This document shows positions 28,947 to 35,640 of a stretch of 64,000 nucleotides of DNA, piece after piece. Made by a program: the position numbers and the translations under genes. The notes below the pieces were generated by a model that did not search any database, was not told the DNA's origin, and saw only the letters and a list, made by a program, of their open reading frames with translations. Every line of letters starts with the position of its first letter. Position 1 is the first letter of the stretch. Source of the DNA: Achatina immaculata (taxonomy: Eukaryota > Mollusca > Gastropoda > Stylommatophora > Achatinidae); contig CM019721.1 in assembly GCA_009760885.1 (NCBI GenBank), positions 22,329,490 to 22,393,489 on the forward strand, written 5' to 3'.

Positions 28947-29266
28947 GTATTTCGTGACCGCCAATGTTATGGCATCGTTATATTCTTTGTCTATATCTTC
29001 TCTAACATTCCTCATTATATTTTCAGTATACAAGTTAAATAAGTAAGGCAACGTTATGCACCCCTGGTGAACCCCTTCTTTTATGTCAAACAAAGTTGCT
29101 GTTTCACCATTTATTCTTACTGCTGGCTGTTGGTCTAGATACAACATTTATGTTAATTAAATCAAGTGTGTTGGCAATCCTATTTTTTCCCATTATTTCC
29201 CAAAGTTTCTGGCGTTGTACACAATCAAATGCTTTTGAATAGTCTATAAAAGATAAATATAGATTC

Positions 29267-30146
29267 TTCTTCTTCTTCTTCTTCGTTCGCTTCTACCACC
29301 ATGACCGCCCTGTGATCCTACTGAATTTACCCCTGTGGTCCTCGATATGTCTCGTGGTCCCCTGTATGATCCCCGAGAGGACCACAGGAGGTTCAGTATA
29401 TCGCAGGGCTTGAGCCTGTATTCTTGGTGGGTCTCAGAAGCGGGATTATGTGACACCGTGGTTTCGTTGCACCAGTTTAGTCTAAAGTTGGACTTTCTCA
29501 CTGGAAAAGCTCGATGTGTTTTGAGATACCCGTGTATCGCCGCCGGGTGAGAGGCGTTGCCCATCCAGTCCAGCATTGGACTTTCTCACCGGAAAACCTC
29601 AGCGTGATTAAGCTACGCATACATCCCCGCCGTGTGAGAGGTTATTGCCTGTCTAGACTGCCATGGTCCAGTGTCTCCGACTTCAGCATTTTGTGGTCGT
29701 GGCCGCTACCCTTCCTAGTTGTGACCAGGATGGAGCTTTAGTCCAGGAGGACGAATCCTCGCTACTAGTGACTTCCACTTCTGGGATGAGCCGGTTTAGG
29801 CATATTATCCCAGTATGGGCGTGTTTATGACGTAACCTACCTCTAGAGCGGAGGTACCGTGGCGTGCATAGCCATCAAGTTTCACCCCTGGTGTAACCCG
29901 GTTTAGGCATATATCATCAGTATGGGTGTATTTCGGACTTGGCTGGCCTCTAGAGCAGAGGTGCCGTGGTATGAGTAAATCTTGCCGCGATACTACTGGA
30001 CATACCGATTACGCTTCATTTTATCCTTTCCATCACCTTTTCACATCGGCGACACACAGCAACCCTGATTGCTTTTCCACATTTTCTTCCTTTGCCGGGA
30101 GGAGTTTCACTCCGCGAGCAGCATCCGAAGAATCTCACTAGCAGTG
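29267..30146 (-). mobile_element. (GAA)n-tailed non-autonomous element, 5'-truncated copy, nested in RTE-A
   Basis: About 880 bp without a coding frame, inserted in the RTE-A copy. The uninterrupted RTE-A copy at 18.45 kb reads straight through the same site. AGATTC occurs at both junctions (29261-29266 and 30147-30152), a likely short target duplication. On the reverse strand the element ends in GAAGAAGAAGAAGAAGAA. The same sequence in opposite orientation makes up 33739-34813, where it has an additional 5' extension. Internal repeats include ~88-bp units ending GGTGAGAAAGTCCAA (two here, three in the other copy) and ~108-bp units containing CTCTAGAGG and AATATGCCTAAACCGG. Confidence 0.8.
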
Positions 30147-30152
30147 AGATTC
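30130..30152. repeat. 23-nt perfect inverted repeat at the 5' junction of the nested element
   Basis: GAATCTCACT, spacer AGC, AGTGAGATTC. It spans the element/host boundary, so it may be created by the insertion itself. Confidence 0.85.
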
Positions 30153-32070: not shown

Positions 32071-32400
32071 TGTGTCTGGAGGCTGGCACGGTAAAGGTTA
32101 GAATGATAAACAAAACACGTGCTCGACCATCTGGTTTTGTGTGAGTAGATCAAGCCACGCATCATGCACTTTTTCCTGCTTGAATCCCCCACGACTGACA
32201 TCTGTGAAACTTCTAGAATACCTTGTTTGTTTGGACTGTGTGTATGTTCGCTATTTACCTTCGCGTTCTCGTTTTTCAGCTTTGAGAAACTTTTATTTGT
32301 TCCGTTTCTCCTCACATTCTTCTGCTCCTGTGTCGTTCACTCACGCTTTCCTTGTCATAGATCTTTTTTTTTCTTATTTGAAATAAAGGTTATAAACACA
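32070..32400. other. Spacer without recognised gene
   Basis: Unique sequence; nothing recognised. Confidence 0.45.
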
Positions 32401-32797
32401 GAAATGATAACATATACTAAGTCTTCCTTCACATATAGCAAGACAAAAACTGCTGAAATGTCTGACATCATTAAAAAAGTAAAGAGGAATGAAAACAAGT
32501 GCTGAAATGTGTGACATCAAATAGAAAATAATGCTCAAATGTGTGACATCAAACAGAAACAAATTTACTGAAATGTGTGACACCAAACAGGAATAAAATA
32601 CGTAAATGTGTGGCATCAAACAGAAAAAATGTGCTCAAATGTGTGACATCAAACAGAAAAAAGTTACTGAAATGTGTGACATCAAACAGAAAAAAGTGCT
32701 AACGTGTGACATCAGAGAGAAAAAAGTGCTGAAATATGAATAAAATACGTTAATGTGTGACATCATACAAGAATAAATGCTAAAAATTATGACATCA
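32400..32797. repeat. ~30-bp minisatellite, left part (about 13 copies)
   Basis: The unit is about TGCTGAAATGTGTGACATCA then AACAGAAAAA. The same array continues at 34823-35640, so the element between them was inserted into an existing array. Confidence 0.9.
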
Positions 32798-33279
32798 GTC
32801 AGCCGCTCCGAGCTGCACAACGCGGGCTGCTGCTGTTGCCCAGACCGACCGTTCTTTTGGCGAAAAAGCGCTCTCGAGTTCCGTGCTTGGGGAGACAGGC
32901 TTTCGCTCCCTTCCTGGACGGCGAGAGTTAAGGTGTTTCAATGCAGAAGCGAGTGGTTTGTCCGTCGAGCGAAGCATATAAACGGCTAGCCAGCCGGGTT
33001 CGTGCTAACGGTGTACTACATTTTTGTCGACCGATGGTCTCGAAATTGGCCCATCTCTCGCAAAGAATATCGGGTCTGCAGTATGTAATGTGCGTTGTTT
33101 GTGAGTGGCTGGGCTCTCCTCTCGATCGTTAGTGCAGAGAGAGCCGCCGGTCGCCTCCGCCGGTTAAAAGAAATAAAACGCCGCCGGGGTCAAAAGGAAT
33201 CCGCTCTGAGCAGAGCGCTGTCTCCCTTGCCCCGCGTCGGTCTGTCGGTAGATATCCGACTAAGGTTCGATGAAGAAAG
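32798..33279 (+). other. Candidate 5' external transcribed spacer (pre-rRNA leader)
   Basis: 482 bp of GC-rich, CpG-containing sequence unlike the AT-rich surroundings, running directly into the 18S start. Its position makes it the likely 5' ETS, beginning near the Pol I start. This is inferred from position only; no promoter element was recognised. Confidence 0.55.
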
Positions 33280-33500
33280 CTATCTGGTTGATCCTGCCAG
33301 TAGTCATATGCTTGTCTCAAAGATTAAGCCATGCATGTCTAAGTCCACACTGTCTCACGGTGAAACTGCGAATGGCTCATTAAATCAGTCAAGGTTCCTT
33401 AGATGACACGATCCTACTTGGATAACTGTGGCAATTCTAGAGCTAATACATGCTTACCAAGCTCCGACCTTCGTGGAAAGAGCGCTTTTATTAGTTCAAA
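33280..33500 (+). rRNA. 18S rRNA 5' fragment (about nt 1-221)
   Basis: Begins TATCTGGTTGATCCTGCCAG and includes AGTCATATGCTTGTCTCAAA, CTGCGAATGGCTCATTAAAT, CTACTTGGATAACTGTGGCA and TTCTAGAGCTAATACATGC, ending AGAGCGCTTTTATTAGTTCA plus AA. This is the universally conserved start of eukaryotic small-subunit rRNA and is well preserved. It stops abruptly after TTAGTTCAAA, where normal 18S continues, and switches to element sequence, so it is a fragment and not a working rRNA gene. The CACACTGTCTCACGGTGAAA wording suits a lophotrochozoan, plausibly a mollusc. Confidence 0.95.
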
Positions 33501-34340
33501 CGCTGCTGGCAAGATTCGTCAGCTGCCGTGCGTGGAACGGTGCTCCTCCCAGCCAGTGAAGAAAGGTGCAAATGGGGTTGCCGCGGGGCACCACTGCGGA
33601 CAAGGTGGTAGAAAGGATAAAGCGAAGCAAACAGTCAAATCACGGCATTTCTGATCTGGAGGTCGGCCACGTCTTAATTGCACTCATGCACTCATATCGG
33701 GTGAAATGCCTGAACCGGCTTAACCCAGAGGTTAAGATACTGCTGGCGAGACTCTTCGGAAGCCACGCGTGGAGTGAAGCTCCTCCAGGTCAAGGAAGAA
33801 AATGCGGAAAAGAAATAAAAGTTGCTGTGCGGCACCGATGTGAAAAGGTGAAGGAAAGGATAAAGTGAAGTTTAATCGGTATGTCCAGTAGTATCGCTGC
33901 AAGAGCTACACATACCACGGCGCCTCTGCTCTAGAGGCCGGCCACGTCCGGAATACACCTACACTGATGAAATATGCCTAAACCGGCATACACCAGGGGT
34001 GAAACTTGAAGGCTAGGCATGTCATGCGATCTCCACTCTAGAGGTTGGTCACGCCTGATATACACCCACACTGATGAAATATGCCTAAACCGGCTCACAC
34101 CAGGGGTGAAACTTTAAGGCTACGCATGTCATGGTACCTCTGCTCTAGAGGTCGCTCACGTCCCAAATACGCCCATACTGGGATAATATGCCTAAATCGG
34201 CTCAACCCACGGATGGAAGTCACTAGTGGTGAGGATTCGTCCTCCTGGACAAAAGCTCCATTCTGGTCACAACTAGGAAGGGTAGCGGCCACGACCACAA
34301 AATACTGAAGTCGGAGACACTGGACCAGTGCAGTCTAGAT
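33501..34340 (+). repeat. Internal repeats of the (GAA)n-tailed element, 5' half
   Basis: Two ~240-280-bp units start at 33501 (CGCTGCTGGCAAGATTCGTC) and 33739 (CTGCTGGCGAGACTCTTCGG). Within and after them are ~108-bp subunits, each with a CTCTAGAGG-type motif, a CAC-TGATGAAATATGCCTAAA-type block and CCAGGGGTGAAACTT. The truncated copy at 29.3-30.1 kb begins exactly at the CTGCTRG start of the second unit. Confidence 0.75.
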
Positions 34341-34610
34341 AGGCAACAACCTCTCACACGGCGGGAATGTATGCGTATCCTAAATCACGCCGAGGTTTTC
34401 CGGTGAGAAAGTCTAACACTGGACTGGATGGGCAACCGCCTCTCACCCGGCGGCGATACACGGGTATCTCAAAACATGTCGAGGTTTTCCGGTGAGAAAG
34501 TCAAACTCTGGCCTGGATGGGCTACCACCTCTCACGCAGCGGGGATATACTTATATCCAAAACACGTCGAGCTTTTTCGGTGAGAAAGTCCAACTCTAGA
34601 CTAAACTGGT
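34340..34610 (+). repeat. ~88-bp internal repeats of the element, 3 copies
   Basis: Each unit contains CCTCTCACVCGGCGG or a variant, a CGAGGTTTTCCGGTGAGAAA-type segment and GTCCAACTCTGGACTGGATG or a variant. The copy at 29.3 kb has two units. No protein is encoded. Confidence 0.75.
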
Positions 34611-34822
34611 GCAATGAAAACCACGGTGTCACACAATTCCGCTTCTGAGACCCACCAAGAATATAGGCTCAAGCCCTGCGATACACTGAACCTCTTGTGG
34701 TCCTCTCGGGGATCTCGTGTGGTCCTACGGGGGACCACGGGACTTATCGAGGACCACAGGGGTAAATTCAGTAGGATCACATGGAGGTTTTGTTGGTAGA
34801 AACGAAGAAGAAGAAACAGATG

Positions 34823-35640
34823 ATGACATCAAACAGAAACATTCCTGAAATGTGTAACATCAGACAGAAAGAAATGACGAAATGTATGGCATCATCAAAA
34901 ATTAAGGACCACTGAAAAAATACTGAGAACTGTGAAATCAAATAGAGAAAATGCTGAATTCTGGCATAAAATAGGAAACAATGCTGAAGTATGTGACATC
35001 AGACAGAAATAAATGTTAAAAATTGTGATATCAAACAGAATAAAAAGCGCTGAAATGTGTGACATCATTACAAAATAATGAGCACTGAAAATAATTGCTG
35101 AGAACTGTGACATAAAAGATAAAAATGCTGAATTTTGATATCAAAGAGAAAAAAATGCTGAATTGCATGGCATCATCAAAACATAAAGATCACTGGAAAG
35201 AGTGCAGAGAACTATAACATCAAACAGAACAAAAATGCTGAAAAGTGTGACATCGTCAGAAGGTAAAAACACTGGAAAATGCTGAGAATTCTGAAATCAA
35301 AGAGCAAAAAGTGCTGAAATATGTGACACCAAACAAAAATAAATGCTGAAATGTGTGACGTCATACAGAAAAAAGTAATGAAATATGTAAAATCATTTTA
35401 AAAAATAATGAGCACTGAAAAAAACGCTGAGAACTTTGACATAGAACAGATAAAAAATGAAATGTGTGACGTAAGACAGAAAAAAAGTCTTAAAATGAGT
35501 GACATCAAACAGAAAAGGTGCTGAAATGTGTGAGATCAAACAGACAAAAAATGCTGAAATGTGGGACATCTAACAGAAAGAAATGCTGAAATGTATTACA
35601 TCAAACAGAAAATGTAGTTAGGTGGTTGACTCAAGAAGTA
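34823..35640. repeat. ~30-bp minisatellite, right part (about 26 copies)
   Basis: Continuation of the array at 32400-32797, with more diverged units and variants such as TGATATCAAAGAGAAAAAAA and CATCATCAAAACATAAAG. Confidence 0.88.

Follow-up and report, generated by a model that had tools for sequence, protein, structure and literature searches.

In 5' transduction, an upstream promoter drives a retrotransposon RNA that carries flanking sequence with it into a new copy. R2, R1 and the non-autonomous R2 SIDEs rely on co-transcription with the rRNA unit (PMC3414825, PMC3774820), R2 itself being site-specific in the 28S gene and releasing itself by an HDV-like ribozyme (PMC3414825, PMC3774820). 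Because the ribozyme can cut as much as 36 nt upstream, within the 28S, many R2 RNAs retain a 28S stretch of up to that length (PMC3774820), and template jumps of R2 to U12 and tRNA are also on record (PMC3414825). In hydra, the R2-clade retroelement R8 resides in 18S genes (PMC5035012; PMC7650587). Fusions of cellular RNA to retroelements, accompanied by target duplications, are described for LINE-1, whose chimeras with 28S, 5S, U3 and other RNAs include 28S pieces of 50-482 nt at 18 loci (PMC13174262), and for the WEIRD/Mg-SINE/MGL chimeras of Magnaporthe (PMC2104539), and both have been attributed to template switching or ligation (PMC13174262; PMC2104539).

The element described here would share with R2, R1 and the R2 SIDEs a reliance on co-transcription with the rRNA unit; it differs from R2 in inserting widely, in giving no Rfam ribozyme match and in having daughters that retain the upstream pre-rRNA. 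Whereas R8 belongs to a target-specific R2 group (PMC5035012), this element would have used many 18S sites, lacks coding capacity and has dispersed daughters. Unlike the LINE-1 and Magnaporthe chimeras, its heads begin where the pre-rRNA begins, and their break points track a nick motif. As compared with 5' transduction at large, the promoter would be the Pol I promoter of the rDNA, reused repeatedly. The listings returned by a literature search contained no dispersed family headed by the external transcribed spacer (ETS) and 18S, and R-type elements were the only ones for which they mentioned co-transcription with rDNA. The best reading of the data, and one we regard as probable, is Pol I read-through of copies resident in rDNA followed by their retrotransposition.

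The window, to which all coordinates refer, comprises 64,000 nt of Achatina immaculata CM019721.1 (GCA_009760885.1). Its plus strand holds, at 32798-34822, a single insertion with a 9-bp direct repeat on either side, ATGACATCA at 32789-32797 being identical to the 9-mer at 34823-34831; both boundaries thus agree exactly with the preliminary description. That account had placed a single insertion in an array of about 30 bp, of which the insertion stands and the unit length does not: the array (32391-32797 and 34823-35625), which the insertion splits, has a unit closer to 33 bp. It holds 12 TGACATCA units, and the ATGACATCA reading occurs in only the two that border the insertion. Minisatellite arrays are very numerous across window 1-64000 (129 TRF rows), several of them kilobases long, with units of 26-50 bp.

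In order, the insertion consists of a 483-nt leader, 18S rRNA nt 1-220, a 1,322-nt non-coding body and (GAA)n. The leader (32798-33280, plus strand) lies directly upstream of the 18S and corresponds to the pre-rRNA ETS; its first bases, GTCAGCCGC, are presumed to mark the start of Pol I transcription, and its last base immediately precedes 18S nt 1. The 18S part (33281-33500, plus strand) was recognised by the Rfam eukaryotic SSU model RF01960, which matches from 33284 (E 4e-27), and was placed on the complete 18S found at locus L065; the model alignment is genuine 18S only up to 33500, the remainder being forced. Past TTAGTTCAAA the window no longer follows the complete L065 18S, nor two eukaryotic 18S sequences in plasmid records, which continue as 18S, in keeping with the earlier proposal that the 18S breaks off at this point. 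Within the 220 nt, it differs from the majority of the heads discussed below at 4 positions. The two plasmid records are bacterial (NZ_CP050525.1 and NZ_CP082873.1), and the eukaryotic 18S within them, 80-86% identical to the window, is probably contamination. An 18S pattern had 0 matches in the genome_contigs and viral_contigs collections, and the body had none in the genome_contigs, viral_contigs, plasmids and phages collections.

The body (33501-34822, plus strand) begins with an A subrepeat (33501-33737), the second of its kind starting from 33738. It further contains three 107-bp subrepeats (33917-34237), three 88-89-bp subrepeat cores (34350-34590), a stable 3' stem-loop (34690-34763; z -4.6, retained in the second copy with z -5.1) and the (GAA)n tail (34804-34815), all on the plus strand. 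The stem-loop is a possible recognition element for a reverse transcriptase. In the alignment of the 88-89-bp subrepeats, 95% of cells are paired, with covariation not above that of shuffles (344 of 500 were as high). The longest open frame in the insertion spans 105 codons, and hence no reverse transcriptase of the R2 type is encoded; R8, in contrast, has coding capacity. Pfam matched one of seven window ORFs, by DUF6451 and a sub-cutoff RVT_1, and none of the other six. The hallmarks sought of a Pol III SINE were absent as well: there is no B box (A-box-like matches exist), no tRNA and no match to an Rfam small RNA. At E<=1 Rfam found SSU rRNA only, and no ribozyme, in 32700-34900. A rough search for HDV-like folds produced 14 loose matches in the insertion and 1 in the second copy; with a core requirement it gave one match per copy, located inside a subrepeat and not at the 5' end.

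The second copy of the body, which is headless, occupies 29267-30146 on the minus strand, with the repeat GAATCT at 29261-29266 and 30147-30152. It interrupts a reading frame for reverse transcriptase, which is open across the site once the flanks are joined, and aligns with 33501-34822 in pieces at 83-89% identity. The preliminary description had drawn attention to a 5'-truncated copy at 29.3-30.1 kb; its reverse orientation and its own junctions are borne out, whereas random truncation is not, since the copy starts in the same A-subrepeat register as the body does after the 18S. Elsewhere in the window, this register is matched only at the internal second A unit.

The 1.65 Gb assembly from which the window derives (145 contigs) was searched with three queries, the first-look candidate counts of which do not equal verified copy numbers: the whole insertion (18,160 candidates), the head alone (2,504) and 18S nt 1-1226 of L040 (1,685). 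For each query 40 candidates were scored, those of the head being 91-100% identical. Among the 40 scored with the whole insertion, 10 rows contained head and body in one piece and 30 had no head in the row, although two further headed copies, split into separate head and body rows, are counted among these 30. As many as 26 of the 30 headless rows begin at query 703-705, i.e., window 33500-33502, which identifies 33501 as the 5' end of the body. Consistent with this, in five of the 16 body-only loci fetched (L015-L030) a target duplication lies directly at 33501 or precedes it by 1-3 nt. Of the others, eight bear a further head, termed head X, one a 28S piece and two (L015, L016) are unclassified. 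Head X is about 215 nt long, has a near-constant 5' end and joins the body at a point with the TY/R spacing described below (the slash marks the nick). It occurs at L017, L020, L022, L023, L025-L028, L045 and L057; in L045 and L057 the order is 18S, head X and body, and in L049 18S is followed by part of X and then by the body from 646. In L028 (1001-3963) two X-headed copies lie about 1.64 kb apart with equal identity to the query, probably as a local duplication.

In total, 48 distinct headed loci were examined, namely the window, L004-L014, L032-L060 and L063-L069 (L003 and L031 are the same place, as are L040 and L062). For 25 headed loci the retrieved sequence included the 3' end, and 22 of these are flanked by target duplications of 9-14 bp, no two of them alike, the exceptions being L043 and L053 with 8 bp and L048 with none. 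Together with the five headless loci, this makes 27 loci with duplications of 9-14 bp, 13 of which are of 12 bp. Loci fetched later include three with 11-bp duplications (L064, L066, L067) and one, L065, at which none was found. Wherever the retrieved sequence reached the 3' end of a copy, a tail of the (GAA)n type is present as well, while heads and 5' ends vary. Variable-length duplications, a constant simple 3' tail and variable 5' ends are the features of non-LTR elements that move by target-primed reverse transcription; four LINE 3' ends checked within the window have tails other than (GAA)n. The many dispersed copies with duplications of their own confirm the earlier proposal that the body is a mobile family. 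That the preliminary description had been misled by an assembly artefact, or by ordinary intergenic spacer beside truncated rDNA, is scarcely credible. The repeat-rich setting is all that speaks for it, whereas the rRNA/body junction recurs at many loci, each with its own target duplication, the (GAA)n tails occur at many unrelated sites and a body copy free of rRNA sits inside a reverse-transcriptase frame; ordinary spacer is likewise at odds with dispersed, duplication-flanked body copies.

The 5' ends of the heads are largely uniform. The start GTCAGCCGC, or a variant of it by 1-2 bases, is found in 41 of the 48 headed loci (35 of the first 41, of which 34 were recognised by pattern and L034 by eye, and 6 of the 7 later ones). 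At loci with both the shared start and a duplication, the head begins 0-3 extra bases after the duplication or overlaps it by 1-2. Most heads thus share one first nucleotide, at which Pol I presumably starts the pre-rRNA; this accords with the earlier prediction for the 5' boundary of the insertion. Exceptions are L004, L007 and L009, which start at head position 53-55, and L042, L055, L056 and L068, which start elsewhere. The heads of L004, L007 and L009 begin at ETS 53-55 directly after their target duplications, and an inner head of L069 likewise begins at about 54; this position is possibly an ETS processing site or a second start.

In contrast to their 5' ends, the heads end at many points. 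For 45 of the 48 loci the 18S end could be placed on the complete L065 18S, L014 being left out for its internal deletion, L052 for its junction with another element and L065 for its ITS1, and the ends fall into 11 clusters from nt 204 to about 1240: 204 (one locus), 217-224 (21), 348-349 (3), 542-545 (6), 560, 628, 644, 818 and 857 (one each), 893-895 (2) and 1236-1240 (7). These counts are to be read with the manner of selection in mind, since L004-L010 were chosen via the full-length query, with a bias toward the 220 junction, L032-L060 by identity to a head with 18S 1-220, so that shorter 18S heads are under-sampled, and L063-L069 by identity to 18S 1-1226, with a bias toward long young heads. 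Among the 30 loci fetched via the head query, 12 have junctions at 217-224. The head of L065 includes the whole 18S (Rfam 1-1831) and ITS1 before the body, which argues that the source RNA is unprocessed pre-rRNA; 28S pieces occur in L019, as the sole head, and in L069. Hence, the joining of 18S to body recurs in the genome, and not at one junction only, there being 11 clusters in 18S in addition to ITS1 and 28S. With this spread and the dispersed daughters, the element also lacks the single conserved rDNA target of R2-type elements.

This diversity bears on the possibility that one ancestral chimera of ETS and 18S (1-220) spread together with its head. Such a subfamily could account for the 21 of 45 located junctions at 217-224; however, the bases vary within that cluster, ten further clusters exist, and a head with no promoter upstream of it would not be expected to regenerate the same 5' end. 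Additionally, when head class was mapped on a tree of the bodies (45 of 46 bodies listed, with long branches for L032 and L042 and bootstrap not settled), class 217-224 needed 14 changes as against a shuffled mean of 14.3, with at least 5 forced. The lack of clustering suggests that heads arose repeatedly, and a single origin is most improbable. For the family as a whole it is refuted by the many junctions; a small group of sibs could exist.

The preliminary description had offered two routes to the head, i.e., read-through by Pol I and a reverse transcriptase switching from element RNA onto pre-rRNA, and the data are in line with that framing. The latter, template jumping, is the main rival, and several observations are such as it would produce. 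The exact 5' end of the body is the rRNA join point in 36 of the 48 heads, and it is at this terminus that a jump would occur; the scatter of head classes over the body tree is what independent jumps would predict; and there is precedent in the jumps of R2 to U12 and tRNA (PMC3414825) and in the LINE-1 chimeras, for which jumping was considered alongside ligation (PMC13174262). Further, 18 of the 45 located junctions contain 1-5 extra nucleotides, mostly C/T, which a jumping reverse transcriptase could add. Headless copies, however, likewise show extra bases where the body meets the duplication, and at both places they are expected if the rRNA junctions are ordinary insertion junctions. The remaining heads join at internal body positions 6, 18, 239, 277, 480, 675 and 850, or at X, another element or a head. 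No RNA end is expected at 277, 480 and 675 for a jump to start from, whereas 5'-truncated insertions in rDNA would yield such joins.

The two routes part over where in the rRNA the heads should end. If the element once sat in rDNA, each break point would be the end of a target duplication, and a nick motif should therefore lie 9-14 nt upstream. The 27 duplications define this motif as T (25/27), Y (25/27), nick, R (24/27), i.e., TY/R. For the final test the motif was taken from 32 sites (the 27 and L017, L019, L020, L022 and L023), the L065 18S served as background, and each cluster was counted once, with a coordinate chosen within it where it spans several (222, 544, 894, 1239). In the interval 9-14 nt upstream of the 11 18S clusters, the highest score for the motif averages 2.97, versus 0.34 over all 18S positions (permutation p = 0.00013), and a strict TY/R is present upstream of 9 of the 11, against a background of 35.5% (p = 0.0023). 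Inclusion of two 28S sites, the ITS1 site and X, giving 15 sites, yields p = 7e-05, with 12 of 15 strict. Earlier versions of the test were a per-locus one at 10-14 nt, one with 11 sites at 9-15 nt (p = 0.0013) and one with p = 0.000375. When fourteen overlapping ranges of spacing were compared, the signal lay at 9-14 nt (p = 0.00035, the next being 0.042), the motif set in this comparison and in the p = 0.000375 version still holding two misplaced sites, L025 and L026, which were left out of the final one.

The populous 217-224 cluster lies after TTTT/ATT/A; of the four nick sites that score highest in the 18S, two (209 and 212) are found there. In the window, the corresponding stretch at 33490-33500 (plus strand), TTTT/ATTAGTTCAAA, would be the duplication generated when the element formerly inserted into rDNA, the nick motif preceding the join of rRNA and body by 11 nt. 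The other two top sites (627 and 1383) have no cluster 9-14 nt downstream, 1383 being outside the sampled range. The strict motif is absent at clusters 628 and 857 and at the ITS1 site, and cluster 204 has the strict motif with a score below background. Since the rRNA break points lie 9-14 nt past the nick motif, read-through is favoured over a jump, for which this spacing of one target duplication is unpredicted, and we consider template jumping unlikely. Similarly, pre-rRNA fragments with discrete 3' ends could have been ligated to element RNA before reverse transcription, and the discrete 18S ends common to different body start points would be compatible with this. Nevertheless, plain ligation adds no bases, as opposed to the 1-5 seen at 18 of 45 junctions, and it gives no reason for the spacing, making it a very unlikely source of the heads.

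Under Pol I read-through, a LINE-type endonuclease and reverse transcriptase is predicted to insert the element at any TY/R nick site, those in rDNA included. Pol I would then transcribe a sense copy lying within 18S, ITS1 or 28S from the pre-rRNA start, and the broken pre-rRNA might escape processing, such that spacer and partial 18S remain on the element RNA. The chimera is found at new sites with duplications of 9-14 bp, a (GAA)n tail and a head that in most cases extends fully to the one constant 5' nucleotide. Such events would have taken place at many 18S positions, making the headed copies a fossil record of hits on rDNA. No copy resident in rDNA was seen: a search for the opposite junction of one such hit, (GAA)3 joined to 18S from nt 210 with <=3 mismatches, gave 0 matches in an assembly in which no rDNA array was identified. 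As to timing, the 18S of L063, L064 and L066-L069 is 99.8-100% identical to that of L065 over 1,230 nt (0-3 bases or one gap). This near-identity, together with the intact 11-bp duplications of L064, L066 and L067, points to a process that is probably recent in this lineage, judged from a comparison among dispersed copies with L065 as the reference.

A broader view, to which we would give an even chance, is that rDNA serves as the standing launch pad of this family. With no recognised promoter of its own, the family would use ordinary nick sites in 18S, ITS1 and 28S and borrow Pol I, its daughters would preserve dated pre-rRNA starts, and its spread to dispersed sites would be driven by Pol I in a cycle that nested heads would mark as repeatable; the genome would hold up to thousands of these fossil snapshots. 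If this is correct, Pol I and rDNA would constitute a recurrent engine for a retroelement that is not site-specific, and every copy with a head would both record a past hit on rDNA and locate the Pol I start with single-base precision. Damage to rDNA by mobile elements, which is normally erased by concerted evolution, would become countable and datable, and the heads would naturally preserve a record of how the external spacer has changed over time.

Two of the loci have more complex heads. In L069 (2740-3471), 18S nt 1-1239 is followed by ETS from about 54 with 18S nt 1-37, a 28S piece and the body; one headed element thus sits inside another 18S head, which suggests repeated rounds. In L052 (with L061), 18S extending past about nt 616 continues into the 3' end of another element, one with the tail ATATAAGATA, and hence the acquisition of pre-rRNA heads may not be limited to one family. 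The 3' end of this ATATAAGATA-tailed element is present in the window too, near 2532 and 30715.
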